Origin: Salipiger mucosus DSM 16094
Lineage (GTDB): Bacteria; Pseudomonadota; Alphaproteobacteria; Rhodobacterales; Rhodobacteraceae
Assembly (NCBI RefSeq): GCF_000442255.1
Contig: NZ_KE557290.1
Coordinates: 1 to 45,096, forward strand
Direction: 5' to 3'
DNA length: 45,096 nt
How positions within the stretch are numbered: position 1 is the stretch's first letter; every line of letters begins with the position of its first letter. Below are positions 18,603-41,710 of this stretch, one piece after another. A program made the translations under genes and the position numbers. The notes beneath the pieces were generated by a model that was not told where the DNA came from, made no database searches, and worked only from the letters and a program-made list of their open reading frames with translations.

Positions 18603-19286
18603 GTGAAGCGCTCCACAGTAGTTGAACGTGCTCGTGTCCGGCGGATCGCCCACTGGCAGCTGTGGTGGCTGCTGGCCCCGATGCTTCTTCTCGGCTGCGA
18701 ACCTCACTCCGAACTCAATACGCGGTTCTGGAATGCGCTCGACCGCGTTTCCTTCGTTAGTCTGCCACTGACGGAGGCCTGGGTGAGACATGCCGACGTG
18801 TCGCTGGTACTCGAACGGCGGTACAGGTCAATCGCCGAACAGCGGCTGCTCTTGCCCAACACAACCTCGATCCGCGGCGAAAATTTCATTCTCATGATCG
18901 CGCAGGAGGCGCGCGCGCCCGGAGTGGGGCGGTTCAGCCCGGGGCTACTCTTGGCGCGGAACGACGGCCCACCCGAACCCTTTGTCGATTTCGACGGCCA
19001 ACCGACCTCGTCACGTCAAGACACGCTGGGCTGGTTGCACTGGTCCCAATGGACCAACGGGACCGACCTGACCTGCGTGCTGGCATTCCGGCAGCTCGAC
19101 GCGACTGACCGCATCTTGCCCGGTAAGTCCTCGGCGCTCGACATGATGCTGCGCAATTGCCTGTACGGGACCGCGGAAGAAGCCTTGGAACCGCTCATCG
19201 ACATCCATACTGGATATGCGGCCATTGCGGAGCATCCGAATGGCAACCAGCGCATGCTGTCACCGCTGGCAGGTCCGCGGCCATGA
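18603..19286 (+). CDS. bcsN: Cellulose biosynthesis lipoprotein BcsN
   Basis: Encodes 227 aa with a GTG start and no strong ribosome site. After a basic N-terminus it has a lipoprotein signal LLAPMLLLGCEPHS (Cys about 32). The mature part contains LVLERRYRSIAEQRLLLPN then TSIRGENFILMIAQEA, which fits the BcsN pattern (two strands around a Gly-Glu-Asn-hydrophobic turn). BcsN proteins occur in alphaproteobacterial cellulose operons; their function is unclear. The stop overlaps the bcsA start as ATGA (19283-19286). The family name is my best match and depends partly on position ahead of bcsA. Confidence 0.65.
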   Translation: MKRSTVVERARVRRIAHWQLWWLLAPMLLLGCEPHSELNTRFWNALDRVSFVSLPLTEAWVRHADVSLVLERRYRSIAEQRLLLPNTTSIRGENFILMIAQEARAPGVGRFSPGLLLARNDGPPEPFVDFDGQPTSSRQDTLGWLHWSQWTNGTDLTCVLAFRQLDATDRILPGKSSALDMMLRNCLYGTAEEALEPLIDIHTGYAAIAEHPNGNQRMLSPLAGPRP

Positions 19287-21631
19287 CAGGCAAGCGGGGG
19301 TTCATGTCGATCGCCATCGCACTGCTGGGACTGCTCTGGCTGCTGCTTCTGGCCATCATCATCATCCTGGCCGCGGCCCCGATTGCGGTGTCGGTACAGG
19401 CATTTTTGGCCATCATCAGCGTTGCTCTTATCTGGCTGCTCAAGCGTTTCGTGCCGGTCAACAGACAGGTGCGCTTTCTCGTGCTCGCCATCGCCAGCGT
19501 CTTTGTCATGCGCTACTGGATCTGGCGCGTCTTCGAGACCTTGCCGTCCCCGGAAGACCCGGTGTCTTTTGCCGCGGCCGTTTTGCTCCTGGGCGCGGAA
19601 AGCTTTACGGTCGCCCTGTTCTTCCTGACATGCTTGGTGACCGGCGATCCGTGCGACCGGGCCCCTCCGAAGCTGATGCACGTCTCCCAGGTGCCCAGTG
19701 TCGACATCCTCGTCCCGTCCTACAACGAGCCGCCAGAACTCCTGGCAGTGACCCTCGCGGCGGCCAAGCAGATCATCTACCCCGAGGGAAAGAAGACCGT
19801 CGTGCTCTGCGACGACGGCGGCACGGACCAGCGCTGCAACCATCCCGACAAGGAAATCGCGAACGCCGCCCGTGAACGGCGCGAGACCCTGCAGTCGCTC
19901 TGCCGTGATATGGACATCGTCTATTCGACCCGTGCCCGGAACGAGCATGCCAAGGCGGGCAACCTCAACGCGGCCCTGAAACATCTCGACGGGGACCTGG
20001 TGCTGATCCTGGACGCCGACCATGTCCCGAGCCGGGATTTCCTGGCTCGCACGGCCGGATACTTCGTCGAGAAACCGCGGCTGTTTCTCGTCCAGACACC
20101 GCATTTCTTCACCAATCGCGACCCCATCGAGCGTAATATCGGCCTTCCGGAGACCTGTCCTGCCGAGAACGAGATGTTCTACACCACGATCCACCGGGGC
20201 CTGGACCGCTTGGGGGGCACCTTCTTCTGCGGCTCGGCCGCGCTGTTGCGGCGCGCCGCTCTGGACGAGGTCGGCGGGATCTCGGGGGTGACGATCACCG
20301 AGGACGCCGAAACCGCGCTCGACATCCATTCGCGTGGTTGGGAGAGCCTTTACCTGAACCGGGCAATGAGTGCGGGACTTCAGCCCGAAACCTTTGCCTC
20401 CTTCATACAGCAGCGCGGTCGCTGGGCCACCGGCATGATGCAGATCCTGCTTCTGAAGAACCCGCTGTTCCGGTCCGGCCTCTCGCTGACGCAGCGGCTT
20501 TGTTACCTGAACTCCATGAGCTACTGGCTCTTCCCGGTGGTTCGGATGATCTTCCTGATCAGTCCTCTCTTCTACCTCTTTTTCGGCCTGCAGATCTTCG
20601 TGGTGCAGCCTGACGGGGTAATGGCCTACATCCTGCCGTATCTTCTCATCGCCATGCTGGTGCAGAACGGGCTCTTCGCGCGAGTCAGGTGGCCTTTGAT
20701 CTCGGAAGTCTACGAGATTGCCCAGACGCCCTACCTGCTCAAGGCGGTTTTCAAGACCTTCATCAGCCCGCGATCGGCCAAGTTCAATGTCACGGCGAAG
20801 GACGAAACGCTGGAGGATGAGTTCATCTCTCCCGTTCTGGTTCCACTCCTGCTCACAACGCTCGTCCTGCTTGCCGGCATCGTGGCCGCGGCCCTGCGCT
20901 GGTATCTCTTCCCCGGGGACCGCTCCGTTGTCCAGATCGTCGGTGGCTGGGCGCTGTTCAACCTCCTGCTGGCCATCCTGGCGCTCCGTTCCGTCATCGA
21001 GCGGCAGCGCCGTCTGCTCAAGCCGCGCACCGCGATCATGGCCCCCGCGTCGCTCTGGCCGGAGGGGCAGCACTCCGGGTCCGCGACGGATGTGGTCCTG
21101 CGTGCGATCTCGGCACGGAAAATGAGGTTCGTGTTCGCCGACGACGATCGAAAAAACGAGATGATCGGCGAAGGCGCCCGGCTCGTGATCCGCCCAAAAA
21201 TCGACGATGCGCCAGAGCTTCAGCACGAGCTGACCATCACGCTGACCAGAGCGGAGGACCCGAGTGACAATGCCGGCAGGCGTTTGTGGTCCGCCGACAT
21301 CGATCGCGATCACCTCATCGCCGCCAGTGAGATTACAGCACATCTGGTCTACGGGGACAGTGAGAAGTGGATGGCCGCGCGTGAAGCGGTGCCACGGTCG
21401 CGGGGCCTGATTTCAGGGATCGTCTTCGTGCTGCGACTCAGCCTGACATCGATTGTCCCATCCGCCATCGCCCTTTTCACCTACCGGGGCGCACCACAGG
21501 ACAACCCTGAGGACCGGTACCGTAACGCCAACGAGACCGAGGCGATCAAGTACTATCTGGCCGACAACACGAGCGATAGCGACCTGTCTGCTGCCTTCTT
21601 GCTCCCAGAGGACGAGGGAGCCAGAACATGA
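19283..21631 (+). CDS. bcsA: Cellulose synthase catalytic subunit BcsA with degenerate PilZ domain
   Basis: Encodes 782 aa, close to the Rhodobacter sphaeroides enzyme. It makes beta-1,4-glucan from UDP-glucose and extrudes it across the inner membrane. Seen in order: N-terminal TM helices; GT2 core with LCDDGGTDQRC (Asp about 176), LILDADHVP (DxD, about 243), VTITEDAETALD (TED catalytic base, about 340) and QQRGRWATGM (QxxRW, about 376); further TM helices; a C-terminal PilZ region (about 570-680). The PilZ c-di-GMP signatures RxxxR and DxSxxG are not intact: the first reads RRLLKPR with one extra residue, and the second site reads VLRAISARKM, so Asp, Ser and Gly are all replaced. The gating loop and catalytic residues look normal. 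Coupled by ATGA overlaps to bcsN and bcsB. Confidence 0.93.
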   Translation: MTGKRGFMSIAIALLGLLWLLLLAIIIILAAAPIAVSVQAFLAIISVALIWLLKRFVPVNRQVRFLVLAIASVFVMRYWIWRVFETLPSPEDPVSFAAAVLLLGAESFTVALFFLTCLVTGDPCDRAPPKLMHVSQVPSVDILVPSYNEPPELLAVTLAAAKQIIYPEGKKTVVLCDDGGTDQRCNHPDKEIANAARERRETLQSLCRDMDIVYSTRARNEHAKAGNLNAALKHLDGDLVLILDADHVPSRDFLARTAGYFVEKPRLFLVQTPHFFTNRDPIERNIGLPETCPAENEMFYTTIHRGLDRLGGTFFCGSAALLRRAALDEVGGISGVTITEDAETALDIHSRGWESLYLNRAMSAGLQPETFASFIQQRGRWATGMMQILLLKNPLFRSGLSLTQRLCYLNSMSYWLFPVVRMIFLISPLFYLFFGLQIFVVQPDGVMAYILPYLLIAMLVQNGLFARVRWPLISEVYEIAQTPYLLKAVFKTFISPRSAKFNVTAKDETLEDEFISPVLVPLLLTTLVLLAGIVAAALRWYLFPGDRSVVQIVGGWALFNLLLAILALRSVIERQRRLLKPRTAIMAPASLWPEGQHSGSATDVVLRAISARKMRFVFADDDRKNEMIGEGARLVIRPKIDDAPELQHELTITLTRAEDPSDNAGRRLWSADIDRDHLIAASEITAHLVYGDSEKWMAAREAVPRSRGLISGIVFVLRLSLTSIVPSAIALFTYRGAPQDNPEDRYRNANETEAIKYYLADNTSDSDLSAAFLLPEDEGART

Positions 21632-23880
21632 CCGCCCTCCTCCGCACCTTCATGGCCATCCTGGCCGCAACAACGGTATGGACGGTCTTTTCCGGCGCGA
21701 CCGCCGAGGCCCAGGTGATCCAGCTGGACGAGTTGCCGGGTACCGAGCGTCCCTTGATGGAGCATACCGATGAGGTCTCCGACCGGCTCGCCACAGATCA
21801 CCAGTCGCGGCATGCCTCGTCAGAGCCGCAGACCTCCGGACCCGAAGCCCGACCTGATGTTCTCCTGCCCCTGCGCGCTCTTCACCCGCAGTCCGGAGAA
21901 ACCGCGCGCTACAGGCTGGGTGGTGAATTCGATGAGGCGCGGTTCGTGCTCTTCGTGCCCAATACGTCCGTCGATTCTACGCTGAGACTCTCAACCTTCA
22001 GCACGGTCAATGTCCTGCCCGAGCAGTCGCGGATCGACGTGCTGGTGAACGGGACCGAGGTTGGCGTGATCATTCCGGAAAACTTCAACGCCTTCCGCAC
22101 TGCCGAGCTATCGCTTCCTCCCGGTGTGCTGAAGGAAGGACGCAATGTCGTGTCTCTCAAGGCCCGGCACACCCATCGTGTCTCTTGCGGGCCGGAAGCG
22201 GGCTTTTCTCTCTGGACTGAGGTCGCGCTCGAGCGAAGTGGGGTGACGCTGGCAGCTGCTTCCCTCGACGCCGACATTCTCGGCTTTCTTTCCGCGGTAT
22301 CCGCCCAGACGGCCAGGGGACAACCGATCTCGCTCCGAGCCGGCGAGGATGTTGAGCTACAGGATTCGGCGACAAAAATCATCGCCCGCATTTCGAAAGC
22401 ACTTGGCGGTATTCCACCGTCTCTGGCTCTTGAGGGGTACTACACGACCGAGGCCGCACTTCCGGAACTCGCTCGGGTGACCAGTTTGCCGGAAGGCATG
22501 GTGCTTGAGGATGGATTCGAGATCCGTCGCGGTGGGGATGGCGCCATCGTGCTCCTGGTGGAGCACGATGCCCACGATGTGGCGGGCCAAGCGCTCCTGG
22601 ATACCCTTCCCGACAGCGACATCGAGGCTCTGCCACCTCAACTGTCACCGGGCACACCGATCCGATTAGCCGATCTCGATCAGGAAACCATTGAGGGCAG
22701 GGGACACTACATCCGGGAAGCTCTGGACTTTAGCCTGCCGTTGGACTGGCTGGTTCTCGCCTCGCAAAAAGCTCGCATGCGCCTGCTGTACCGCTTTGAC
22801 ACGAGCCTGCCCGAGGGCTCTCTTCTTCTGGTCAAGGTGAACGACACCACCGTGCGACTGCTGCCTCTCGACCAGGCCGGAGACGCCGGCCGACCGCTGC
22901 CCGTTCTTCCCGTCGATTTCGATGCTGCGCTACTGACCCCGGGTCTCAACCGCATAATATTCGAGGCACTCATCCCCGGCGATCCGCCCGACCGCGCCTG
23001 CGACCTGCGCGACGATCCCGTGTTCGAAATTTCGGATCGGACGACGCTCTTCGTGCCAGACTCCCCGTCGATGAGCGTGACTGGCATCGAGCGCGTCCTG
23101 ACGCATCTCCAGCCCTCTGATCTCGAGGTAAGCGAACGCGCCGCAGCGCGGCTTCCCGCAGGACTTCTGCCGCAACTCGCCGCGATATATAACGGAGCCC
23201 AAGGGCCGGATGCTGCCGAAACAGGCGAATCCTACCGGCTGACCATCGGTACGCTTCAGGACATCCCCCAGGTGACGGGGGGTCTCGTTACCGCGCATCT
23301 TCCCGCCTTCCGCGAGATCCTGACAACACCGACGGGGACCGCCGCCAACGGGACCGGGAATTCCCCTTCCGAGATACGGTTCGGCTCCATGAACGCACCG
23401 TCCTGGCGGTTGTCCCTCCCTGACCGACTGGGTGACTTGCGCGGCCGGCTGGAAAGCTGGGTTGAAGTGCTCTGGTACGGAGATACGCCTAAATTTGGCG
23501 AGTGGCTGCATGATCGGCGCGCGGAGGCGCTACTCTTGCAGCCCAACCCGGATCGGCCGCGTGATGCCTGGTTGATCCTTGGCCCGGACGCGGATCCGCA
23601 GACGATCGTTGCCTCGCTTGCTCGCGCGACGTGGTCGCCCGAGGGGCCGCGTGGTCAGGTGTCGGCATACCGGGCCGAAACAGGCTGGCAAAGTTGGACG
23701 TCCCATTCCAGGAATGTCGTCCTGCATGAGCCGATAACCTATAAGAACCTGCAGGCGGTCCTTGGGAATTTCGCCAGTGCACAGCCCTGGGCATTCATTG
23801 TCGTCATCATGGCATTCACGCTGTGCTCAGCATTCGTCGGCATGATCATTGCCGCACTTGCTCAACGGAGAGACCGATGA
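21628..23880 (+). CDS. bcsB: Cellulose synthase periplasmic subunit BcsB
   Basis: Encodes 750 aa. It has a signal peptide (FMAILAATTVWTVFSGATAE), a long periplasmic part of alternating carbohydrate-binding jelly-roll and flavodoxin-like domains (LRLSTFSTVNVLPEQSRIDV, IPENFNAFRTAELSLPPG, then a second similar pair), and one C-terminal TM helix (AFIVVIMAFTLCSAFVGMII) that packs against BcsA and is required for its activity. Length is typical for alphaproteobacterial BcsB. The start overlaps bcsA and the stop overlaps bcsZ, both as ATGA, so the subunits are made in step. Confidence 0.93.
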   Translation: MTALLRTFMAILAATTVWTVFSGATAEAQVIQLDELPGTERPLMEHTDEVSDRLATDHQSRHASSEPQTSGPEARPDVLLPLRALHPQSGETARYRLGGEFDEARFVLFVPNTSVDSTLRLSTFSTVNVLPEQSRIDVLVNGTEVGVIIPENFNAFRTAELSLPPGVLKEGRNVVSLKARHTHRVSCGPEAGFSLWTEVALERSGVTLAAASLDADILGFLSAVSAQTARGQPISLRAGEDVELQDSATKIIARISKALGGIPPSLALEGYYTTEAALPELARVTSLPEGMVLEDGFEIRRGGDGAIVLLVEHDAHDVAGQALLDTLPDSDIEALPPQLSPGTPIRLADLDQETIEGRGHYIREALDFSLPLDWLVLASQKARMRLLYRFDTSLPEGSLLLVKVNDTTVRLLPLDQAGDAGRPLPVLPVDFDAALLTPGLNRIIFEALIPGDPPDRACDLRDDPVFEISDRTTLFVPDSPSMSVTGIERVLTHLQPSDLEVSERAAARLPAGLLPQLAAIYNGAQGPDAAETGESYRLTIGTLQDIPQVTGGLVTAHLPAFREILTTPTGTAANGTGNSPSEIRFGSMNAPSWRLSLPDRLGDLRGRLESWVEVLWYGDTPKFGEWLHDRRAEALLLQPNPDRPRDAWLILGPDADPQTIVASLARATWSPEGPRGQVSAYRAETGWQSWTSHSRNVVLHEPITYKNLQAVLGNFASAQPWAFIVVIMAFTLCSAFVGMIIAALAQRRDR

Positions 23881-24947
23881 AGAGACGGGCCCTGCTTGCC
23901 GGTCTGGCATCTTTGCCCAGTTTACTGGCGGTCGGAACCTCGCCTGCGCTTGCGCAGGCAGAACGGCAAGCCATGCAATTCAAGCCGGTCTGGACCGCGT
24001 GGCGCAATGCCAATCTTGACGTGACGGGGCGCGTCGTCGACCTGCTGCAGCGGAACGCCAGTCATTCCGAAGGGCAGGGGTATGGAATGCTCCTGGCCGC
24101 TTACGCCGGGGATGCGCGGGCCTTTGCCGCAATGGAGAACTGGGCCCGTATCAACCTTGCGATCCGTCCTGATGCCCTCATGGCCTGGCGGTGGCTGGAT
24201 GATCAGCCTGACAAGGTGCCTGACACGAACAACGCCAGCGATGGCGACCTCTTTCGCGCCTGGGCCCTTCTCAAGGGGTTCGAGCGGTTTGGTGTAGGAG
24301 AATACCGAGATCAGGCCGCGGCCATCACCCGCGACTTGGCAGCGAAATGCATCGTTTCGCACCCCGGTACCGGCGCGTCCCTTCTCTTGCCCGCGGTTCA
24401 CGGTTTTCGCACTCCTGACGGGTTCGTCTACAATCCCTCCTACGCTATGCCGCTTGCATTGACCGAGCTGGCCCAGGCCTTCGACGAGCCCGCGCTCGCC
24501 GATGCCGCTGCGAATGGTTTGGCCATGGCGGACCTGCTCGCGGCTGGCGGGGTGGTGCCTGACTGGGTGGAAGTCACGCCGGCCGGGCCGCAACCAGCGA
24601 CGGGGTTTTCCTACGAGGCAGGATACGAAGCAATCCGCGTGCCACTCTTCCTCATCTGGTCCGGGCAAGGCACCCATAGCGCCGTGTCACGCTACGTTGC
24701 GGCACAGAAGGCCGTCCCGGCAGGCGAGGTTGCGACTGTCATAAGCCGCACGGGTGAAGACATCCTGCAGACCACGAGTGCCGCAGGCTATCGAGCCGTG
24801 GCAGCGCTCGCGACCTGCACGACCGATGGGGGCATTGGAACCGAGATCCCGCCCTACGTGCCCTCCGCCCCCTATTACCCTGCAACCCTCCACCTCTTCG
24901 CCATGCTGGCCCAGATGGAAGCAGTTCCCCGATGCCTACCGATATGA
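23877..24947 (+). CDS. bcsZ: Periplasmic endo-1,4-beta-glucanase BcsZ (GH8)
   Basis: Encodes 356 aa. The signal peptide is MKRRALLAGLASLPSLLAVG up to ALAQAE. The GH8 fold is marked by SEGQGYGMLLAAYAGD with the proton-donor Glu (about 65), NASDGDLFRAWALL with the conserved Asp pair (about 121-123), and FVYNPSYAMPLAL. BcsZ trims glucan chains in the periplasm and is needed for proper cellulose export and fibre structure. It follows bcsB by ATGA overlap and its own stop makes an ATGA with an in-frame start of the next gene (24944-24947). Confidence 0.93.
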   Translation: MKRRALLAGLASLPSLLAVGTSPALAQAERQAMQFKPVWTAWRNANLDVTGRVVDLLQRNASHSEGQGYGMLLAAYAGDARAFAAMENWARINLAIRPDALMAWRWLDDQPDKVPDTNNASDGDLFRAWALLKGFERFGVGEYRDQAAAITRDLAAKCIVSHPGTGASLLLPAVHGFRTPDGFVYNPSYAMPLALTELAQAFDEPALADAAANGLAMADLLAAGGVVPDWVEVTPAGPQPATGFSYEAGYEAIRVPLFLIWSGQGTHSAVSRYVAAQKAVPAGEVATVISRTGEDILQTTSAAGYRAVAALATCTTDGGIGTEIPPYVPSAPYYPATLHLFAMLAQMEAVPRCLPI

Positions 24948-26389
24948 TCAGTCGTTCCCCTCGTCTCCCCGCTCTTGCCTTGTTGCTGATCGCCGTGGCT
25001 TGGCCCGCCACGGCTCAGGATCCCGACAGACGCGACCTTCAGGCGCTGCGCTTCTACATCGAAGAAGACAACCAGGATGCGATCCAGTCCGAGTTGAGGC
25101 GGCTGCAGATCCAGTTTCCTGCCTGGGAGCCTCCCGCCGACCTCAGCACGCTCACGCAGGATATCTCCGGGGCGGCGGTGGACCGCATCTACCAGCTCAT
25201 CGCAGAAGGCAATCATCAGGAAGCTCGGGAAGCAATCGCACAAACTGAGCGCGATTACCCCGATTGGTCGCCCTCCGCAGATCTCCTCTCGACCCTGTCG
25301 CTGGCGGAAAGGCAGGCTGCATTCGACGCAGCCGTGACCGCCGGAAACCGTCAGGCCGTGATCCGGATTGCTCGCTCCACGCCCGAGCTGCTGCGCTGCG
25401 AACGGGTAAACAATGCTTGGCTCCTAGCCGAACAATACGCGGCAATGAACGATCCCGACGCCGCTTTCACGGTTTACAGGGGTGTCTCAAACAGCTGTGA
25501 GAACCCTGATATCCTGATCGCGACACTCGAGAAGGCAGCAGCCGTCGCAAGTGCCGGCCAGATTGGTGACTTGGCCGATACCATGCGGTCAAGGGTGCCC
25601 GCGGCCAGCCAAAGGTTCTCGACTGTCGAAAATCGTCTGCGCGCTGGCCTCGGAGCCTCGCCGCGGAACTTGCCCGGATCCACACGCCCCACCGGTGCGC
25701 CATCGTCGGAGCCGCAGGACGCGGAGACCACGATCACCGCGGATATGCGGCCCAAGGCAAGGCCAACGACGCTCGGGCAACCCGCAGTCCGGCCGACCGT
25801 TAGGGCCGCCAGCAAGAGCAGGAGGCGGTCGGATGGCGCATCCGTGTCGTCCCGCGTCGCGCGTGCCGCCGGGGTCGGGGATTGGCAGACCTGCCTCGCG
25901 CTTACCGCCAAGGCAACGCAAGCTGCCCTCGTCTCCCAACGCGGATGGTGCGCTTTCAACGCGGGACGACCGATGCAGGCCCTGCGCGATTTCAAGGTTG
26001 CTGCAGCCAGAGGTGGCACTGCAAGCCTACGCCGGGACTCCGCCTATGGCATGGCCCTGACGATGATGCGGCTCGACATGGTGAACCAGGCAGCGGCCGT
26101 GGCGGCCAGCACGGACTTCACCCGTGACCAGCGCCTCGAGATTGAAAGCGAAATCCTCGATGCCCGTGGCGTTGCGGCCTTCAATCGCGGTGAGTATGGG
26201 CAGGCGATAAGCTATTTTAACGAGCTGGAACGCCTGACCGGCACGGTGCGCCGCGACCTCGCGCTGCTGCGGGGGTACGCCTACCTGAATTCAGGGCGCC
26301 GCGGGAAAGCCGTGACGGAGTTCCGCAAGCTGCACAACCAGCTGGCCACCCCGGAGACTCGTTCGGCTCTCTCTACCGCGCTGCGATAG
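24944..26389 (+). CDS. Periplasmic TPR protein of the cellulose operon (BcsC-like helical part only)
   Basis: Encodes 481 aa from ATG 24944, chosen because it repeats the ATGA coupling of the other four genes; an ATG at 24932 is also possible. It has a signal peptide (LALLLIAVAWPATAQ). Residues about 25-230 and 310-480 hold helical hairpins of TPR type (QAAFDAAVTAGNRQAVIRIA; GVAAFNRGEYGQAISYFNEL; RGYAYLNSGRRGKAVTEFRK). Between them is a disordered Pro/Arg/Ser linker. BcsC proteins combine TPRs with a C-terminal outer-membrane barrel; here the protein ends after the TPRs, so no barrel is encoded in this operon. It may act as periplasmic scaffold, leaving outer-membrane passage to another protein. 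Function inferred from operon position. Confidence 0.75.
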   Translation: MISRSPRLPALALLLIAVAWPATAQDPDRRDLQALRFYIEEDNQDAIQSELRRLQIQFPAWEPPADLSTLTQDISGAAVDRIYQLIAEGNHQEAREAIAQTERDYPDWSPSADLLSTLSLAERQAAFDAAVTAGNRQAVIRIARSTPELLRCERVNNAWLLAEQYAAMNDPDAAFTVYRGVSNSCENPDILIATLEKAAAVASAGQIGDLADTMRSRVPAASQRFSTVENRLRAGLGASPRNLPGSTRPTGAPSSEPQDAETTITADMRPKARPTTLGQPAVRPTVRAASKSRRRSDGASVSSRVARAAGVGDWQTCLALTAKATQAALVSQRGWCAFNAGRPMQALRDFKVAAARGGTASLRRDSAYGMALTMMRLDMVNQAAAVAASTDFTRDQRLEIESEILDARGVAAFNRGEYGQAISYFNELERLTGTVRRDLALLRGYAYLNSGRRGKAVTEFRKLHNQLATPETRSALSTALR

Positions 26390-26764: not shown

Positions 26765-27505
26765 TCAAGGGTTGAACCGGATTAGCAGCGGGGCGGCCAC
26801 CATGGCCGCGATGAACCCACCGAGATGGGTCTCCCAGGCCAGCCCACCGGCCTCAAGGAACGTCCCGAGCACATTCAGGGCAATCACCCCAAGGACATAG
26901 ATCCCGATCATTCGGAGAATGTATCGGCGGGCCTGACCCTCTCGGCTCATCCTGCGCGCTTCCAGGACGATCCAGGCCGCGATCAACCCCATCACGATAC
27001 CGGAGGCCCCGACCATCGGCCGCAGGCTCTGGGCCAGGAGAGCGAACCCTACCGCGCCGCCCAGTGACGAGAGAGCCAGGAGCAGAGCAAACCGTTTCGG
27101 GCCGATCCGCTCCCCGAGCTGCTCCCCCAGCCAGACGAGCGCGAGGCCGTTGCCGAGCACATGCTGCCAGTCGCTGTGTAGGAAAGGGTAGGTCGCGAAC
27201 ATGACGACCGGCTGGGCCGTGTAAAGCGGCTTCCAGCCATGCAGTAGCCTGACCCAGAACCCACCGTACTGGTAAGTTGTCTGGCGCCAGGAGGGCACTC
27301 CCCAGAGGCACGCATCGGCCCCCACGAGCAGTCCCTCGATCGCGACCAGCAGGATCACGAACCCAATGCAGAGAGACCGGGTACCACTCTTGGGGCCGGG
27401 GTATATCATCCCGTCTCTCAATGATCCGTCCCTTCTCGGCCCGTATCCCACCCCGAAAGGCTCCCCGAACTCTCCGTACAACCCTCTCCACCAGTCGTCA
27501 TACAC
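26765..27505 (-). CDS. Rhomboid family intramembrane serine protease
   Basis: Encodes 246 aa from GTG 27505 (an ATG at 27409 would remove the cytoplasmic N-tail). About six TM helices. Catalytic features: HSDWQHVLGNGLALVWLGE (HxxxxHxxxN of TM2; here His110, His115, Asn119), GASGIVMG with nucleophile Ser168, and WETHLGGFIAA with the catalytic His227. Rhomboids cut TM segments of substrate proteins within the membrane. No partner is evident; the cellulose and EPS membrane proteins nearby are possible but unproven substrates. The 5' end lies next to the repeats and repA relic at 27529-27640, suggesting a recombination boundary. Confidence 0.9.
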   Translation of the reverse strand: MYDDWWRGLYGEFGEPFGVGYGPRRDGSLRDGMIYPGPKSGTRSLCIGFVILLVAIEGLLVGADACLWGVPSWRQTTYQYGGFWVRLLHGWKPLYTAQPVVMFATYPFLHSDWQHVLGNGLALVWLGEQLGERIGPKRFALLLALSSLGGAVGFALLAQSLRPMVGASGIVMGLIAAWIVLEARRMSREGQARRYILRMIGIYVLGVIALNVLGTFLEAGGLAWETHLGGFIAAMVAAPLLIRFNP

Positions 27506-27528
27506 CCTAGAACCATGGCCGGAAGGGG

Positions 27529-27574
27529 CGTGTGTGAAGTGTCGTTTGCAGGCTCAACCGTGTGTGAAGTGTCG
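27529..27574 (+). repeat. Two iteron-like repeats CGTGTGTGAAGTGTCG
   Basis: Exact 16-bp direct copies at 27529-27544 and 27559-27574, start-to-start 30 bp. They resemble the TGTGTGAA family near the origin and directly precede a relic of a repA 3' end. Confidence 0.6.
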
Positions 27575-27582
27575 AAAGGAAC

Positions 27583-27636
27583 CCCGAGACGGCGTTCTTA
27601 GGCTTCTACCAGAAGTGGTTCAAGCGACGCGAGTGT
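27583..27636 (+). pseudogene. Relic of a repA-like 3' end (copy A)
   Basis: One frame reads PETAFLGFYQKWFKRRE, matching the resident RepA C-terminus (RAFLGFCKKWFEKRG) with differing codon third positions. No upstream repA sequence remains. It is followed by a 142-bp leader that leads to manC; the same arrangement recurs before ugd. Confidence 0.65.
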
Positions 27637-27650
27637 AGACGAGCTGGCTT

Positions 27651-27792
27651 GGTTCGGAGCGGGCAGCCCGTTTTCGCTGCAAGGGTTTCGGCAGTTCAAC
27701 CTAAACGATAGGCAAGGCACTTTCTGCGGTTGCGAAATAAACTTGGGGTGGTAGCCATTGCGACAGTATCTTTGTGAAGCAGGTCTGTCTCG
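27651..27792 (+). promoter_or_regulatory. 142-bp leader before manC, direct repeat of the leader before ugd (copy A)
   Basis: From GGTTCGGAGC to the base before the manC ATG. It matches 29307-29448 over its whole length, strongest in CAGCCCGTTTTCGCTGC, CAACCTAAACG, TAGGCAAGGCA and TTTCTGCGGTTGCGA. Both copies end exactly at a start codon. Probably carries a promoter and untranslated leader for EPS genes. Confidence 0.65.
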
Positions 27793-29235
27793 ATGCCCTC
27801 TAAATCCATTACGCCGGTACTTCTGTGTGGCGGCTCCGGCACCAGGCTCTGGCCCCTCTCCCGGAAGTCCTACCCCAAGCAGTTCGCGCCTCTGATCGGT
27901 CAGGAAACCCTGTTCCAAGCCTCGGCGAGACGACTTTCAGGACAGGCCAACGGGTTGAACTTTGCAGCGCCACTGGTCCTTGCCAACTCTGACTTCCGGT
28001 TCATCGTGACCGAGCAACTCATGGCCATCGGCATTGACCCAGGCGCCATCCTGATCGAGCCCGAGGGTCGTAATACCGCGCCCGCCATACTGGCGGCGGC
28101 GTTGCACGCTGCGGCAGACGACCCGGAGTCCATTCTGCTCGTCGCGCCCTCGGACCACGTTATTCCCGACACGGAGGCTTTCCAGGCGGCTGTTGCCCGT
28201 GGGCTCGCGGCGTTGGAACAAGGCGATCTCGTAACATTCGGCATTACTCCTGACCGCCCCGAAACCGGTTATGGCTATCTTGAGCTCACCGAAAAGCCTG
28301 ATGCTTCCGGCGCCCCAGTGAAGCTGGCCCGCTTCGTCGAGAAGCCGGACAAGGCCCGCGCCGAGAACATGCTGACGGCCGGCACCTATCTCTGGAATGC
28401 CGGCATTTTCCTGTTCCGGGCCAAGGACATCATCTCGGCGTTCGAGACACATGCCGCCGCGCTGGTTGAACCAGTGAAGGCATCACTTTCACAGGCGCAA
28501 ACGGATCTCGGCTTTCTGCGACTCGCACCTGAGCCCTGGGTCGAACTCGAGGACATCTCGATCGACTACGCGGTGATGGAGAAAGCACCGAACCTCTCCG
28601 TTGTCCCCTTCACCTCTGCCTGGTCCGACCTCGGCGGCTGGGATGCGGTCTGGCGCGAAAGCGGCCCGGACGGGACTGGTGTGGTGACCTCGGAGCACGC
28701 CACGGCCATCGATTGTGAGAATACACTTCTGCGCTCGGAGAGCGAGGACCTCGAGGTGGTCGGCATCGGGCTGCAGAACATCATGGCCGTCGCGATGGAG
28801 GACGCGGTCCTGGTGGCGAACATGGATCGGGCGCAGGACGTGAAAAAGGCCGTCGAGGCGCTCAAGGCCAAGGGGGCGAGCCAAGCCACTGCCTTCCCCA
28901 AGGATCACCGGCCCTGGGGTTGGTTCGAAAGCCTTGTCGTTGGCTCTCGATTCCAAGTGAAACGCATCGTGGTTCATCCCGGCGCTTCGCTGTCGTTGCA
29001 ATCGCATTTTCACCGCTCCGAGCACTGGATCGTGGTCGAAGGCACCGCGCGCGTGACAGTGGACGACGACGTGAAGCTCGTGACCGAAAACGAGTCCGTC
29101 TACCTGCCGCTAGGCTGCGTGCACCGGATGGAGAACCCCGGCAAGATGCCCATGGTACTGATCGAAGTGCAGACCGGAGCCTATGTCGGCGAGGACGACA
29201 TCGTGCGTTATGAGGATGTCTATGCTCGAACATGA
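27793..29235 (+). CDS. manC: Mannose-1-phosphate guanylyltransferase / mannose-6-phosphate isomerase
   Basis: Encodes 480 aa, the usual size of the bifunctional type II enzyme. The N-terminal nucleotidyltransferase has GGSGTRLWPLSRKSYPKQF (about 12-30) and the mannose-phosphate motif FVEKPDKA. The C-terminal cupin isomerase domain has QSHFHRSEHWIVVEGTA with metal-binding His residues and PLGCVHRMENPG. It makes GDP-mannose from fructose-6-phosphate via mannose phosphates, given a phosphomannomutase; none is encoded on the plasmid, so the host must supply it. It feeds gmd and fcl downstream. The stop at 29235 is followed almost at once by a second repA 3'-end relic. Confidence 0.93.
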   Translation: MPSKSITPVLLCGGSGTRLWPLSRKSYPKQFAPLIGQETLFQASARRLSGQANGLNFAAPLVLANSDFRFIVTEQLMAIGIDPGAILIEPEGRNTAPAILAAALHAAADDPESILLVAPSDHVIPDTEAFQAAVARGLAALEQGDLVTFGITPDRPETGYGYLELTEKPDASGAPVKLARFVEKPDKARAENMLTAGTYLWNAGIFLFRAKDIISAFETHAAALVEPVKASLSQAQTDLGFLRLAPEPWVELEDISIDYAVMEKAPNLSVVPFTSAWSDLGGWDAVWRESGPDGTGVVTSEHATAIDCENTLLRSESEDLEVVGIGLQNIMAVAMEDAVLVANMDRAQDVKKAVEALKAKGASQATAFPKDHRPWGWFESLVVGSRFQVKRIVVHPGASLSLQSHFHRSEHWIVVEGTARVTVDDDVKLVTENESVYLPLGCVHRMENPGKMPMVLIEVQTGAYVGEDDIVRYEDVYART

Positions 29236-29240
29236 GCCTG

Positions 29241-29294
29241 GGTGTCTTCGTCGGCTTTTTCCGGAAATGGCTCTCGCGGCGCGGGCGGGCATAG
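29241..29294 (+). pseudogene. Relic of a repA-like 3' end (copy B)
   Basis: The frame GVFVGFFRKWLSRRGRA followed by TAG aligns with the resident RepA end AFLGFCKKWFEKRGRP-stop, including the stop position. It begins 5 nt after the manC stop and is followed by leader copy B. Codons differ from copy A and from repA, so it was once a separate coding sequence. Confidence 0.65.
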
Positions 29295-29306
29295 AGGGGC
29301 TGTTCT

Positions 29307-29448
29307 GGTTCGAAGCGGACAGCCCGTTTTCGCTGCACGTGCAGAGGAACTTCAACCTAAACGGTAGGCAAGGCAGTTTCTGCGGTTGCGAGATACGGCT
29401 GGACTGGTAGCAGTAACAGCGAGTTTCTCGCTAGGTAGGTTTGTCTCT
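29307..29448 (+). promoter_or_regulatory. 142-bp leader before ugd, direct repeat (copy B)
   Basis: Same length and register as 27651-27792 and about three quarters identical by eye, ending at the ugd start codon. Ribosome-site region AGGTAGGTTTGTCTCT lies just before the ATG. Confidence 0.65.
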
Positions 29449-30801
29449 ATGCGCATCGCCATGATCGGAACCGGGTATGTTGGCCTCGTTTCCGGAGTTT
29501 GTTTCTCTGACTTCGGGCACGAGGTGGTCTGCGTCGACAAGGATCCACGCAAGATCGAGATGCTCGAACGCGGCGAGGTGCCGATCTACGAGCCCGGGCT
29601 CGACGTGCTGATGCACAAGAACGTCGAGGCGGGGCGGCTGTCGTTCACGCTCGACCTGGAAAGCGCCATCGACGGTGCACAGGCGGTCTTCATCGCCGTG
29701 GGCACGCCCACCCGGCGCGGTGACGGGCACGCCGACCTACGCTACGTCATGGCCGCGGCCGAGGAGATCGCCCGCGCGGCCAGGCATCACGTCGTTGTCG
29801 TCACCAAGTCCACGGTGCCGGTCGGGACCAACCGCCAGGTCCGCGAGACCGTGGCGGCCGCGAACCCCGAGCTCGACTTCGACGTCGCCTCGAACCCCGA
29901 GTTCCTGCGCGAGGGCGCCGCGATCGAGGACTTCATGAAGCCCGACCGCGTTGTCGTCGGCGTCGAGACCGACCGCGCCGCGCAGGTCATGGCGGACATC
30001 TACCGCCCGCTCTACCTGCGCGAGTTCCCGATCCTGACCACCGACCTCGAGTCGGCGGAGATGATCAAGTACGCGGCCAATGCCTTCCTTGCGACCAAGA
30101 TCACCTTCATCAACGAAATCGCGGCGCTCTGCGAGAAGGTGGGCGCCGACGTGAAGCAGGTCTCGCGGGGCATGGGGCTCGACGGGCGGCATCGGCAACA
30201 AGTTCCTGCACGCCGGGCCGGGCGTACGGCGGGTCGTGCTTTCCCAACGGACACCAAGGCGCTCGCGCGCATCGGGCAGGATCACGCCTCGCCCGTGTCG
30301 ATCATCGAGACGGTCATCAAGATCAACGAGGACACCAAGCGGCGCATGGTCGACAAGCTGCTCGATCTCTGCGGCGGCTCGTTCAACGGCAAGACCGTCG
30401 CGGTGCTGGGCGTGACCTTCAAGCCCAACACCGACGACATGCGCGACGCGCCGGCGCTGACCATCGTGCCGGCGCTGGTGGGCGGCGGCGCGCGGGTGCG
30501 CACGGTCGACCCGCAGGGCCGGCGCGAGGGCGAGGCGCTGCTGCCGGGCGTGAGCTGGATGGACGACCCCTACGAGGCCGCCGAGGGCGCGGACCTGCTG
30601 GTGGTGCTGACCGAGTGGAACGAGTTCCGGGCGCTGGACCTTTCTGCGCTGTCCGAGCGCATGTCTGTGCCGCGCATGGCGGACCTGCGCAACGTCTATT
30701 CCCTTGAGGATGCCCTGACTGCAGGCTTTACCGCATACGACAGCATTGGACGTGTCGGCCATGCGCCCGAGGGTGAGCCTACAGTCCAGGCGGCACAGTG
30801 A
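29449..30801 (+). CDS. ugd: UDP-glucose 6-dehydrogenase with scrambled catalytic-Cys motif
   Basis: Encodes 450 aa. It should oxidise UDP-glucose to UDP-glucuronate. N-terminal Rossmann motif MIGTGYVGLVSGVCFSDFGH; then IAVGTPTRRGDGHAD, STVPVGTN, SNPEFLREGAAIEDF, ESAEMIKYAANAFLATKITF; C-terminal Rossmann-like domain with VAVLGVTFKPNTDDMRDAPA. The catalytic segment, normally RIGNKFLHAGPGYGGSCFPK, reads RHRQQVPARRAGRTAGRAFP instead. The DNA shows why: single extra bases at 30190 (C), 30224 (G) and 30248 (C) shift the frame three times and restore it, leaving about 20 wrong residues (about 248-267) and no nucleophilic Cys. As written the enzyme should be inactive. Codon use is more GC-rich than in flanking EPS genes. 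Family certain; function doubtful. Confidence 0.85.
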   Translation: MRIAMIGTGYVGLVSGVCFSDFGHEVVCVDKDPRKIEMLERGEVPIYEPGLDVLMHKNVEAGRLSFTLDLESAIDGAQAVFIAVGTPTRRGDGHADLRYVMAAAEEIARAARHHVVVVTKSTVPVGTNRQVRETVAAANPELDFDVASNPEFLREGAAIEDFMKPDRVVVGVETDRAAQVMADIYRPLYLREFPILTTDLESAEMIKYAANAFLATKITFINEIAALCEKVGADVKQVSRGMGLDGRHRQQVPARRAGRTAGRAFPTDTKALARIGQDHASPVSIIETVIKINEDTKRRMVDKLLDLCGGSFNGKTVAVLGVTFKPNTDDMRDAPALTIVPALVGGGARVRTVDPQGRREGEALLPGVSWMDDPYEAAEGADLLVVLTEWNEFRALDLSALSERMSVPRMADLRNVYSLEDALTAGFTAYDSIGRVGHAPEGEPTVQAAQ

Positions 30802-32070: not shown

Positions 32071-33192
32071 ATGAAATCAGCACTCATCACCGGCATCACA
32101 GGCCAGGACGGTTCCTACCTGGCAGAGTTTCTTTTGGAGAAAGGCTACGAGGTCCACGGCATCAAGCGTCGTGCTTCTTTGTTCAACACCCAGCGGGTCG
32201 ATCACATTTACCAGGATCCGCATGAACCGAACCCTAAGCTCAAGTTGCACTACGGCGACCTGACCGATACGTCGAACCTCACCCGGATCATCTCCGAGGT
32301 TCAGCCTGATGAGGTCTACAACCTGGGTGCCCAGTCTCATGTGGCTGTAAGCTTCGAAGCCCCGGAATATACGGCAGACGTGGACGGCATCGGTACGCTG
32401 CGCCTTCTGGAGGCGATCCGCTTCCTCGGGCTCGAGAAGAAGACCCGGTTCTACCAGGCCTCGACCTCCGAGCTTTTTGGTCTCGTGCAGGAAACCCCAC
32501 AAAAAGAGACAACGCCTTTCTACCCACGTTCGCCTTACGCTGCTGCGAAGCTCTACGCCTACTGGATTACGGTGAACTACCGTGAGAGCTATGGGATGTA
32601 TGCTTGCAACGGCATCCTTTTCAACCATGAGAGCCCGCGTCGTGGCGAGACCTTCGTGACCCGCAAGATCACCCGTGGCCTCGCCAACATTGCACTGGGG
32701 CTCGAGGATTGCCTCTACATGGGCAACATCGACAGCTTGCGCGATTGGGGCCATGCAAAGGACTATGTACGCATGCAGTGGATGATGCTGCAGCAGGATG
32801 TCGCCGAAGATTTCGTTATTGGAACCGGCAAGCAGTATTCGGTCCGTGAGTTCATCGACTGGACCGCCAAGGAGCTCTCGATCGAACTGGATTTTTCGGG
32901 CGAAGGCACCGAGGAAACCGCGACCGTCAAGTCGGTGGACAACAACGTCGCCCCGGCGGTGAAGCCGGGCGACGTCATCATGCGTATCGATCCGCGCTAT
33001 TTTCGACCCGCGGAGGTGGATACGCTTTTGGGCGACCCAACTCGCGCCAAGGAAAAGCTCGGCTGGGTGCCTGAAATCACCGCTCAGGAGATGTGCACTG
33101 AGATGGTGGCTGAAGACCTCAAGACCGCGAAGCGCTATGCCCTACTGAAAGAACATGGGCTTGATTTGCCCGTGAGCCTCGAAAACGGCTGA
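32071..33192 (+). CDS. gmd: GDP-mannose 4,6-dehydratase
   Basis: Encodes 373 aa from ATG 32071; longer upstream frames overlap the preceding GT gene. Short-chain dehydrogenase fold with [16 protein letters not shown] (NADP binding), [23 protein letters not shown], catalytic STSELFG and [12 protein letters not shown] (YxxxK), [16 protein letters not shown], and DWGHAKDYV. Converts GDP-mannose to GDP-4-keto-6-deoxymannose, the branch point to GDP-fucose. The next gene, fcl, completes the pathway. Full length with all key motifs. Confidence 0.95.
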
Positions 33193-33242
33193 ACGCTAGG
33201 CGCCGTGAACGGCTTTCCTAGCATAAGGAAGAGATGGAACGT

Positions 33243-34232
33243 ATGTCACAGAAACGCATCTACGTAGCGGGTCATCGCGGCATGGTAGGTGGGGCCATCT
33301 TGCGTCACTTGCAGGAGCGTGACGACGTTGAAATCATTACCCGCCCCCATGCCGAGCTCGACTTAACCGATCAGGCCGAGGTACGCGCGTTCTTCGAGGC
33401 AGAACGACCAGACGTGGTCGTTTTGGCGGCTGCCAAGGTGGGGGGGATTCACGCCAACAACACCTACCCAGCTGATTTCATATACGAAAACCTGATGATC
33501 GAGTGTAACGTAATCCATCAGGCCCATGCTGCTGGAGTCCAACGGTTGCTGCAATTGGGATCGTCATGCATCTACCCCCGTGACGTTCCTCAACCAATGG
33601 CTGAACACGCATTGCTAACTGGCACATTGGAATCCACCAATGAGCCTTACGCTATTGCCAAGATTGCAGGAATCAAGCTCTGCGAAAGCTACAACCGGCA
33701 GCACGGGCGCGACTACCGTTCGGTCATGCCCACCAACCTATACGGGCCGGGTGATAATTTCCATCCCGAAAATTCTCATGTCCTGCCAGCACTCATACGT
33801 CGCTTTCACGAAGCGGTTCGGGACGGGCGCAAAGAAGTTGTGATCTGGGGTACCGGATCGCCAATGCGGGAATTTTTGCACGTTGAAGACATGGCAGAGG
33901 CAAGCCTCTTCATTCTGGGCCTGCCAACAGAAACCTACGCGGCCAATACTGAGCCGATGTTGAGTCACATCAACGTGGGGAGCGGGTCCGAAATCTCAAT
34001 CAAAGACCTAGCGACAATGGTTGCAAACATCGTAGGTTTCCATGGCGATCTCCGCTTTGACACTTCGAAACCCGATGGAACTCCACGCAAACTAATGGAC
34101 GTCACACGTCTGTCCAATATGGGCTGGGCTGCCAAAATCGAACTACGAGACGGAATCGCACAAACCTACAGATGGTACCTTGACAACCTAAACCCCGGAA
34201 GAACGAGCACCTCCAATATCCGAGAATCATAG
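33243..34232 (+). CDS. fcl: GDP-L-fucose synthase
   Basis: Encodes 329 aa from ATG 33243; an ATG at 33234 sits directly on the AGGAAGAG ribosome site, so the second start is preferred. Motifs: [12 protein letters not shown] (NADPH binding), [25 protein letters not shown] with catalytic Ser, [11 protein letters not shown] (YxxxK), [23 protein letters not shown]. Performs the 3,5-epimerisation and 4-reduction giving GDP-L-fucose. It lies 50 bp after gmd. From about the middle of this gene onward the DNA becomes more AT-rich. Confidence 0.94.
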
Positions 34233-34449
34233 ACTTGACACACATATGTTGGGCCAAACGACATGAAGCGCAATCCAAAACCAAATCCAACTTTGAGAAG
34301 TGAGGTGTGCGCCTGCCCACAGCGATTGCGTCTCCAATATACAGGCTCAATCTCCATCTGGCGTCTTCTTCCTCGTCGAGTTCGGGAATATTCTACATAT
34401 ACAAATCGACATCAATTAAATACACACTACGCAGAAGCGTCGTAAGCTC

Positions 34450-35277
34450 ATGGCATTTATGAAGTCCGCTCCAGTTAGAAAGAGCCGTGCGATCTTTTCT
34501 CGCATTCCGCGCCTAATCGCTCGAACATCCGCCTCGGATGACGACTATCTTCACCATCCACCAGTAATTGTTAACTCTCTTCCTAAGAGTGGCACACACC
34601 TTTTGATGCAACTCGCCATGAACCTACCGGGGACGCGGCAGTATGGCAGTTTCATCGCTCAAACGCCCTCGCTCACGCTAAAGCTGAGGTCGCAGCAAGC
34701 GATCGATAGAAGAATTAAATCGGTTGCTCCAGGCGAAGTCGTCGGTGCGCACCTTCACTACAGCCCGGAAACCGCCGAAGCTTTAAGACGACGCAACGCC
34801 CTCCATCTGTTCATCTGGCGCGATCCAAGAGATGTACTTCTGTCGGAAGCGCACTATTTGGCAAAAATGAATCGCTGGCATGCCATGCACAAGACCTTCG
34901 CTTCGCTTTCCGATTTCGATGCACAAGTACGCTTGGCAATTACTGGGTTAGACGAGCATCGTTATCCAAGAGCAGATAAGCGCATCGGTCCGTATATGGG
35001 TTGGACCGAAAGCTACGGATGCGTATGTTTGAGATACGAAGATCTAGTAAGCCCTCAAACTAACATTCAAGAGTGCCAGCGCATAATAGACGCCTATAAA
35101 CAGCTCGCTCGCTCGCCCAGATCGTTGCCTTCGGCCAAGGAATTGGTTAACGCCATAGATCCCCAAGGCTCTCACACGTTCAACAAGGGCGGTATAGCGC
35201 GTTGGAAAGAGGAAATGAGCCCAGCTAACTTAGATTTATGCCATGCAATACTGGGGAAATGGACGGACCCGGAATGA
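34450..35277 (+). CDS. Sulfotransferase
   Basis: Encodes 275 aa (MAFMKSAPVRK; an inner ATG is at 34459). The 5'-phosphosulfate loop VIVNSLPKSGTHLLMQLA (about 38-55) and the 3'-phosphate motif FIWRDPRDVLLSEAHYL (about 118-134) mark a PAPS-dependent sulfotransferase; a further YEDLV follows. It probably transfers sulfate from PAPS to the EPS repeat unit, on fucose or another sugar. Sulfated polysaccharides are common in marine organisms and rarer in bacteria. AT-rich codon use relative to the plasmid backbone indicates separate ancestry. The substrate is inferred from the cluster only. Confidence 0.85.
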   Translation: MAFMKSAPVRKSRAIFSRIPRLIARTSASDDDYLHHPPVIVNSLPKSGTHLLMQLAMNLPGTRQYGSFIAQTPSLTLKLRSQQAIDRRIKSVAPGEVVGAHLHYSPETAEALRRRNALHLFIWRDPRDVLLSEAHYLAKMNRWHAMHKTFASLSDFDAQVRLAITGLDEHRYPRADKRIGPYMGWTESYGCVCLRYEDLVSPQTNIQECQRIIDAYKQLARSPRSLPSAKELVNAIDPQGSHTFNKGGIARWKEEMSPANLDLCHAILGKWTDPE

Positions 35278-35570
35278 CATCTCTCAGCGGTCCATGTAAC
35301 AAACTAGAATTATCGGATACAATCCCGCGACCATCAGAGCTAGACATGCATCCAAGTATATCTAAATTATCTGACCACAGAACTTGACCCTGATCGATCA
35401 GTAATGGCGTGCAACGATACTTAAATTTCCCAACGCACGATAGCCTGAAGGCACACCAGTAACACGATGCATGAGAAACGATTGAAACGCTACATATACA
35501 GCATTTGGAAGGCAACTCGATCAAATCCCCTTTTCAACCACGGCAAGCCGAAAACCGAACGAGCGCTACA
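35278..35570. other. Gap without a supported gene
   Basis: AT-rich spacer between the sulfotransferase and pyruvyltransferase genes. Open frames are short and lack ribosome sites. No promoter or hairpin stands out. Confidence 0.35.
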
Positions 35571-36641
35571 ATGAATGTCTACTTCTCACTGGCAACTCAG
35601 TTTGAAAATCTCGGCGACGAAATGATTAATACACTGCTTCTCCGAGAGGTTTCAAAGCGATGTAGGCTGGTACTTTTCGCTGGTTCCGCTCCAAATTGGT
35701 ACGTCAAATCTGTTACACGGGAAATAAATGAAGTAGGACACCGCGTCGACATCATCCACGATAAAACGAAATATATTCGACAGCTCATGCTAGCCGGCTG
35801 CTTCTCACCAGGGACAACCATATTACTTTCCTGCGGGGATGTCTCGGCGAAAGGCTCTTCAAGCCGAAAGTCCCTAGTTATGAATTTTCTTTCTCGGCTG
35901 CCATTTTTGACTTTTGCGCAAGTTGGCGCTTCGAGATTGGCGATACACGATACAGATGTGCCTTGGCTTAAACGCACTTCTATTAGATCGGGTAAAATCT
36001 CCGTACGAGATCGATACTCAAAGGCGGAACTGGCCAAGCACGATATCCGAGCGGACTTGGTTCCCGATCTTGCATTTTTAATGCAGTGCAGCCCATCACC
36101 TGCTGGCAGACGCGTAGTAATAATGCTGAGAGAGCCCGGAAATAACCAGGACGAATTTTCTAAGCTGATAGCGCAGATAGTCGGAAAATTAAAGGCGGAA
36201 GGATATAATCCGGAATTTGCCTGGCAAGTAGATCGCGATTCGGATTTTAACCGCAAGTTGGCCACTATGACCAACTGCGATATCCTTTATATTCCTGGCG
36301 CCGGGCAAGATAGAAAATCGGAAGCACTTGATTCGTACTCAAATGCTCCTTACATCATATCAAACCGCTTGCATGGATTGCTTATCGCCGCATCCCAAGG
36401 GGCAATCCCAATAGCCTTGCTCGACGACAGAGAGAGGAAGGTGCGCGGAGTACTTGAACATGCTGAGCTAGGCGATTTGATATTATCCACCGACACAGAC
36501 TATGAAGAGACCTTCGACAAGCTTACGGCCATCCTGAAAAGTCGGGACGTATATCAATCGCATGTTGCGAATGCCTTCAATACGGAGGGCCGGCATATCT
36601 GCTCAGCTCTGGACCAGTACTTCGGAAAATCATCGGCATAG
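35571..36641 (+). CDS. Polysaccharide pyruvyl transferase family protein
   Basis: Encodes 356 aa from ATG 35571 (MNVYFSLATQ). Family signs: FENLGDEMINTLLLREV near the N-terminus (NxGDE motif), GKISVRDRYSKAELAKHDIR, then ADLVPDLAFLM, and YIISNRLHGLLIAASQGAIP with the conserved Arg-His-Gly. Enzymes of this family transfer pyruvate from phosphoenolpyruvate to form ketals on sugars, adding negative charge (as in xanthan or succinoglycan). The upstream extension of the frame to 35505 lacks a good start. It ends 2 nt before the flippase gene. Confidence 0.85.
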   Translation: MNVYFSLATQFENLGDEMINTLLLREVSKRCRLVLFAGSAPNWYVKSVTREINEVGHRVDIIHDKTKYIRQLMLAGCFSPGTTILLSCGDVSAKGSSSRKSLVMNFLSRLPFLTFAQVGASRLAIHDTDVPWLKRTSIRSGKISVRDRYSKAELAKHDIRADLVPDLAFLMQCSPSPAGRRVVIMLREPGNNQDEFSKLIAQIVGKLKAEGYNPEFAWQVDRDSDFNRKLATMTNCDILYIPGAGQDRKSEALDSYSNAPYIISNRLHGLLIAASQGAIPIALLDDRERKVRGVLEHAELGDLILSTDTDYEETFDKLTAILKSRDVYQSHVANAFNTEGRHICSALDQYFGKSSA

Positions 36642-36643
36642 AA

Positions 36644-39197: not shown

Positions 39198-39204
39198 AGC
39201 GCTC

Positions 39205-41335: not shown

Positions 41336-41710
41336 ATGCGCCGGCCGCCTTTGAATAAGGCGGTAATCGCAACTTCAGTGATTGCGTGGATATATTTCGG
41401 TTAAATGTGCTGATTTGGTGCATATAATTTATTTTATTTTTTGTGTCGCACTCCTCAGCAGGGCCGCGCACATCATAAAATAGATATAGTCCTAACTTCA
41501 CGGTAATTAGTATCTCAGAATTTATGCGCTCCTATCGCGTTGAGGAGACCTCCAACGCGGGCAACCAGAACGCGCTTGAGGGGTTTAGAAGCTGAGGTTC
41601 AAAGTGTGAGCTGAAGGAATAATCTCGATTGCGTCGCTGTCCGAGTATCGCGGCTAGTGGGGATAACAGTTCGGTTTTTGAGCATGCTATGACATTTTAG
41701 TCACCTGAGG
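41336..41710. promoter_or_regulatory. Intergenic region before wzc
   Basis: A hairpin (stem 41345-41351 / 41357-41363, loop 5 nt) just after the glycosyltransferase may end that transcript, though no T-run follows. The rest is AT-rich and should contain the wzc promoter. No coding frame is supported. Confidence 0.4.

Follow-up and report, generated by a model that had tools for sequence, protein, structure and literature searches.

Probable fossil of a second, foreign replication module before manC and ugd on an EPS plasmid of Salipiger mucosus

On a putative plasmid of the halophile Salipiger mucosus DSM 16094, manC and ugd are each preceded by a remnant resembling a RepA C terminus and by one copy of a repeated leader. 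We conclude that this region is probably what is left of a second replication module, foreign in origin, on an EPS plasmid, with the leader kept as a cis-acting upstream region and the two copies derived most simply from one duplicated piece. The analyzed stretch, hereafter the window, is the whole of contig 18 (45,096 bases) in a genome of 5,689,389 bases and 30 contigs. The genome description of the type strain, DSM 16094T, likewise gives 30 scaffolds and presents scaffold 18 (45,096 bp, replicase RepA-b) as putative plasmid 2 (PMC4148975); we equate the window with this scaffold. The two ends of the window (1-134 and 44963-45096) are identical over 134 bases, suggesting a circular molecule of 44,962 bases, and the scaffold is thus probably closed.

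RepA relics and the plasmid that carries them

The original prediction placed a relic of a RepA C terminus in front of both manC and ugd, and this part holds. In tblastn searches of 72,556 plasmid records with 20-residue tail strings (E up to 10), the tail of relic a (NPETAFLGFYQKWFKRRE) matched 41 records, and among the 30 listed, 27 were annotated as "replication initiator protein A" and 3 were unannotated. The tail of relic b (VFVGFFRKWLSRRGRA) matched 6 records, all 6 with that annotation. The E values are weak (at least 0.05 for tail a and at least 1 for tail b), and the weight comes from the identity of the matches. Against a 13-column RepA-tail profile, relic a scored 28.4 and relic b 14.0, and the best of 290 shuffled 700-nt stretches scored 3.0; an earlier 16-column profile gave 29.6 and 0.7, with 11.3 as the best of 60 simulated windows. 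Both relics carry the pattern ..AFLGF(C)xKWxxxRGRx at the protein end. From these comparisons, we regard the assignment of relic a as a RepA tail as firm. Relic b, a weaker case when taken alone, is likely to be one as well, held up by its tblastn matches and its alignment with relic a despite the score of 0.7 in the 16-column profile. Neither relic contains the PF10134 initiator domain, which spans residues 45-273 in the resident RepA, and neither therefore qualifies as a RepA gene.

Directly 5' of relic a lie two exact copies of the iteron GTGTGTGAAGTGTCG and the ribosome-site-like motif AAAGGAA (Table 1), which the original description had overlooked. Exact GTGTGTGAAGTGTCG was present in 7 of 394 sampled genomes of the family, including that of S. 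mucosus (reversed-pattern control, 0), and in all six of the others an open RepA frame with an NPEMAFLGF tail stands behind the iteron. Elsewhere in the S. mucosus genome the iteron does not occur, even at one mismatch. Five plasmids fetched by tail a carry it before repA, exactly in three and as variants in two, and in Leisingera caerulea (L018) AAAGGAA stands between the last iteron and the start of repA. A 141-base query spanning the junction between AAAGGAA and relic a gave 14 records with E values of 10 or less, including some chance matches. It aligned to the iteron region of plasmids from Leisingera, Phaeobacter, Roseivivax, and Sagittula and, at a different plasmid place, to the 3' end of repA in Sagittula sp. 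MA-2 (E 0.1). The iteron/AAAGGAA piece and the repA tail piece are 970 bases apart in L018 and touch in S. mucosus, indicating that the relic a module has lost nearly all of its repA. Judged by this comparison, relic a is a collapsed replication module from which ∼1 kb of repA is gone: the iterons stand in their position before repA, and the last 18 codons are all that is left of the gene.

These same features bear on whether the tails are RepA at all, as they might instead belong to a short leader peptide or to part of a control element. We consider such an origin extremely improbable. The frame is open for at least 14 codons in both copies, and relic b is weak in one profile, as a peptide would allow; against it, the tblastn matches are RepA C termini wherever they are annotated, the iterons before relic a match those of RepA plasmids with the same tail, and, behind AAAGGAA, relic a lacks its own start codon.

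Table 1. Features of the window discussed in the text (positions in the 45,096-base window)
Feature	Position	Strand	Basis or remark
Resident origin, repeats of GGTAACTAAAACCCCGAA type	6398..6595	+	Unlike the iterons at 27530
Resident repA (RepA-b), RepA type other than relic a	6576..7661	+	PF10134; PMC4148975
Iteron GTGTGTGAAGTGTCG, copy 1 of the presumed lost replication module	27530..27544	+	Exact; shared with RepA plasmids that have this tail
Iteron GTGTGTGAAGTGTCG, copy 2	27560..27574	+	Exact; 5 bases before first codon of relic a
AAAGGAA, ribosome-site-like, of the presumed lost repA	27575..27581	+	Identical in L018 before repA ATG; 2-base overlap with deletion junction (ambiguous)
Relic a, last 18 codons of NPE-type repA	27580..27633	+	No in-frame stop at the expected place
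Leader a, to manC start	27633..27792	+	Alignment with leader b, ATG included
Conserved block 1 of leader a	27651..27682	+	29/32 identical to 29307-29338
Conserved block 2 of leader a	27695..27739	+	42/45 identical to 29351-29395
AGG..ATG start-site block of leader a	27780..27795	+	13/16 identical to 29436-29451
manC (mannose-1-phosphate guanylyltransferase/mannose-6-phosphate isomerase)	27793..29235	+	Pfam
Relic b, likely RepA C terminus plus stop	29244..29294	+	8 bases past manC stop
Leader b, to ugd start	29289..29448	+	Alignment with leader a
ugd (UDP-glucose/GDP-mannose dehydrogenase family)	29449..30801	+	Pfam

A PF10134 profile search of the S. mucosus genome returned three places, none of them at 27 to 30 kb of the window and none of the NPE type as judged by the tail. 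Near the resident repA we observed more GTGTGTG-type repeats at 7716-8336 (GTGTGTGAAATGACGAAG, GTGTGTGAATCCCGA, and GTGTGTGTTTCCCGA), which are perhaps iterons of still other RepA types; the stretch 8060-8420 matched only three Streptomyces records among the plasmids, in a chance-like manner.

YjbF/YjbH-type EPS genes at 968-3792 (minus strand) adjoin a wza-like gene at 43996-45036 across the joint of the circle, and genes for a cellulose-synthase-like glycosyltransferase, BcsB, GH8, and TPR proteins occupy 19157-26389. The G+C content drops to 46-49% at 33000-42000, compared with 59-65% around it, in a stretch with sulfotransferase, pyruvyltransferase, flippase, and glycosyltransferase genes that is likely a separate import. 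In the predicted Ugd, ∼30 residues (∼30183-30250) are unlike those of relatives at the GPGYGGSCFP site, which we take to hold the catalytic Cys, and the flanks match at 83-84%; the patch appears to be out of frame, with the frame restored after it, through either a sequencing error or a real change. The EPS of S. mucosus has been reported to contain mannose, fucose, glucose, and galactose together with sulfate and pyruvate (PMC2953402), and the plasmid genes manC, gmd, and fcl and those for the sulfotransferase and pyruvyltransferase agree with the make-up given there.

The repeated leader

Equally long, alignable leaders ending at the manC and ugd start codons had also been described, and our alignments confirm them. 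Without gaps, 27633-27795 and 29289-29451 are identical in 118 of 163 columns, both ATGs included; blastn of one copy against the window gave 125 identical columns of 165 with 4 gaps (E 2e-28), and a search of the S. mucosus genome with the repeat found exactly two places, before manC and before ugd. Identity is uneven along the leader, at 8/16 and 8/22 in the spacers versus the much higher values of the two blocks and the start site (Table 1). We rejected a coding leader, as mismatches by codon position number 18, 15, and 12 whichever frame is used, and two of the three frames contain stops. The blocky identity and the lack of a coding frame hint at a cis-acting region, most likely a promoter or an untranslated leader plus start site serving manC and ugd.

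The kind of element was narrowed by several searches. A consensus scan for sigma-70-type promoters and terminators found none at 27400-29500; for sigma-54 and other promoter types, the search consisted of visual inspection. Inspection by eye gave a stem (GGGCTGTTC/GGACAGCCC) in copy b that is imperfect in copy a, and a terminator behind repA was rejected with the scan result. The motif CGGTAGG prompted us to consider a JUMPstart/ops element; copy a reads CGATAGG, and this candidate was dropped. Conserved structure of the leader RNA was also not borne out: the two 150-base RNAs fold differently (z scores of +0.8 and -2.2) with no common fold, leading us to reject a conserved RNA fold, and an Rfam search of the window at gathering thresholds returned nothing. 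The leader may therefore be a protein-binding or start region retained for expression rather than an RNA switch.

Alternatively, the leader could be the passive 3' flank of a lost repA, its uneven identity arising by chance or by partial gene conversion between the copies. Such a flank would explain why neither promoter, terminator, nor conserved fold was found, and neither the best-conserved 20-base window (p 0.31) nor the longest run (p 0.09) was significant alone, both lying within the range of the permutations. The lowest-identity window was more extreme (p 0.002), and the variance of identity among windows was reached by none of 20,000 column permutations, which argues against a passive flank. 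So do the start-site block, kept after the spacer at 8/22, and the interval between manC and ugd, in which there is nothing except the relic b and leader b piece. On balance, we think a passive flank unlikely and favor a retained upstream region. The duplicated leader is a candidate element through which the supply of GDP-mannose and UDP-glucuronate could be controlled jointly.

Outside the window, we found no match to the leader in the 72,556 plasmids (E limit 0.001), in 20 genomes of the same genus besides that of S. mucosus, or in 390 genomes of the order besides it, a set that overlaps those of the family and genus. Among the 394 genomes of the family, the leader matched none besides S. 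mucosus itself except for 36 bases in one genome (G122), a match that falls within a proline-rich repeat and covers the end of relic b. An exact 20-mer from block 2 was absent from genome and viral contigs, a collection from which near-identical records may be omitted. The exact 18-mer of block 1 occurred in 17 genome contigs, which we took as chance matches rather than leader copies, since similarity stops within 25 bases in 17 of 17. In the upstream DNA of relatives of manC and of ugd (29 each), the best leader scores were 26 and 25, against 24 for the best of 58 shuffles and 120 between the two copies, and homology there was rejected.

Behind 20 intact repA genes, the best leader score was 24, versus 25 for the best of 400 shuffles and 120 for copy a against copy b. 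Three of the 20 flanks exceeded the shuffles' 95% point of 21 and none exceeded the best shuffle, indicating that the leader is not a known repA flank. The proposal that the leader is an element linked to repA genes thus found no support, either in these flanks or in the plasmid collection, and no parent plasmid with the order repA, leader, and EPS gene was found in the collections searched. Neighboring repA and EPS genes do exist on plasmids, as described below; of the proposed three-part unit, the leader is the part that was not found.

One duplicated piece or two imports

The original prediction took third-codon differences as a sign that the relics came from distinct repA genes, and the counts speak against that reading. 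Tails a and b differ at 3, 5, and 5 places at codon positions 1, 2, and 3 (13 in total), whereas among 14 intact RepA tails compared pairwise, 62% of the differences fall at position 3 (5% point of pairs, 44%). Relative to the resident repA, third-position differences number 6 of 13 for relic a and 7 of 17 for relic b. The lack of third-position bias between the relics is as expected of decay after coding was lost and argues, on 13 differences only, against long divergence as two working genes. Each relic is 10 of 42 bases from the intact tail of L019 and the two are 13 from each other in a near-star pattern; as the relics are about as far from L019 as from each other, these 42 bases cannot prove a single duplication.

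Based on these comparisons, we propose the following course. On an ancestral plasmid, the EPS genes would have had a different type of repA nearby (tail NPE-x-AFLGF, iterons GTGTGTGAAGTGTCG), and the resident RepA-b module may then have assumed replication, by fusion or by take-over. Once RepA-b replicated the plasmid, the second repA would have been free to decay. Comparison with intact modules shows a deletion of ∼1 kb that brought the ribosome-site region up against the final 18 codons and left two iterons, AAAGGAA, and relic a before manC. Relic b, behind manC, matches a second RepA C-terminal piece and would be a remnant of such a gene. The leaders would have been kept as needed for expression of manC and ugd while the surrounding repA decayed, and the two copies would most simply stem from one duplicated relic-plus-leader piece.

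A different history, in line with the original prediction, would have two different repA genes, each with a leader and an EPS gene, arrive from two plasmids and become stacked by recombination. Plasmids with an EPS gene directly behind repA exist today, the distance of each tail from intact RepA tails is about the same as that between the two, and manC and relic b are separated by 8 bases, as could result from a join. Yet the tail differences lack the third-position bias of intact tails, and with the leader found behind none of the 20 intact repA genes, independent donors of repA and leader are not in sight. We therefore favor one duplication of relic and leader over two imports, to which we assign a real but clearly minor share of the probability.

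Replication modules and EPS genes on other plasmids

EPS-type genes lie near repA in four of the six other genomes with GTGTGTGAAGTGTCG: wzc, gmd, and fcl in G218, glycosyltransferase genes on both sides in G223 and G371, and a sugar epimerase gene in G250. In G037 and G262, no EPS-type genes were seen near repA, as judged by eye only. In G218 (L046), the NPE-type repA is located within an EPS cluster, with wzc on one side and the divergent gmd and fcl on the other. We also found EPS genes on the NPE-type plasmids of Sagittula sp. P11 and of S. stellata E-37, the latter examined over its first 50 of 84 kb, and none in the 10 kb examined for Leisingera caerulea and Limimaricola variabilis. The presence of EPS genes near repA in some of these genomes and plasmids and their absence in others suggests that plasmids with the NPE-type RepA are frequently but not invariably EPS plasmids. 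Michael et al. (2016, a reference in PMC5513947) are credited with the term "biofilm plasmids" for EPS plasmids.

A second question was whether an EPS gene once stood just behind repA. Such an order is present today: on contig 34 of G258, an intact repA that belongs to a different type (81% to the RepA of Pseudooceanicola algae p49) is followed after 193 bp by manC, whose product is the nearest to S. mucosus ManC among the other genomes searched (83%); p49 itself carries repA, a small ORF, and manC; and in Sagittula sp. P11, repA is followed after 140 bp by an arylsulfotransferase gene. These neighbors make the proposed ancestral arrangement plausible, but it is rare, with repA before manC at 1 of 29 genome loci and at 1 of 8 plasmid manC genes whose surroundings were examined, and before ugd at 0 of 29. 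In one further genome (L084), a broken RepA-tail-like string (AFL*FCKK, with an internal stop) lies 636 bases before manC and scores 10 in the profile for which the best shuffle scored 3.0; this is perhaps a further repA scar before manC.

The region probably records, above all, the swapping of replication genes among such plasmids, in which an EPS plasmid of the Roseobacter group changes its replication type and keeps its payload while the old module shrinks to iterons, a ribosome site, and the final repA codons. Scars of this kind could be used to read past plasmid types out of draft genomes. Incompatibility is determined by iterons (PMC3832669), and the left-over iterons could affect which EPS plasmids coexist. 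More speculatively, and in our estimate very improbably, RepA from NPE-type EPS plasmids entering the cell might be bound by the two iterons, which would act as an incompatibility determinant, and the promoter region of the dead repA, joined to the leader, might drive manC. If so, rival polysaccharide plasmids would be kept out, and the supply of EPS sugars would follow the copy number or the RepA of a related plasmid.

In gene order, the closest likeness is to p49 and contig 34 of G258, where, as in S. mucosus, repA and then manC follow on one strand; both differ in their RepA type (tails AFLGFLRKKATG and AFLGFVRVRAKR) and in their repA-manC intergenic DNA, which is unlike the leader. In replication type, the likeness is to S. 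stellata E-37 unnamed4, Sagittula sp. P11 unnamed6, and L. caerulea S122 unnamed1 (PF10134, Rhodobacterales), which share the iteron GTGTGTGAAGTGTCG and the NPEMAFLGF tail with relic a, the last of them also the AAAGGAA that stands before it. In those three plasmids, repA is intact and the leader is absent, whereas in S. mucosus ∼1 kb of repA is missing and the plasmid by all appearance replicates via another RepA. A further likeness is to composite alphaproteobacterial plasmids such as the 259-kb plasmid of Martelella mediterranea, which is described as combining two replication modules that differ in origin (PMC5613091); both of its modules are described there as functional RepABC modules, whereas one of the two in S. 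mucosus appears to be a ruined iteron module.
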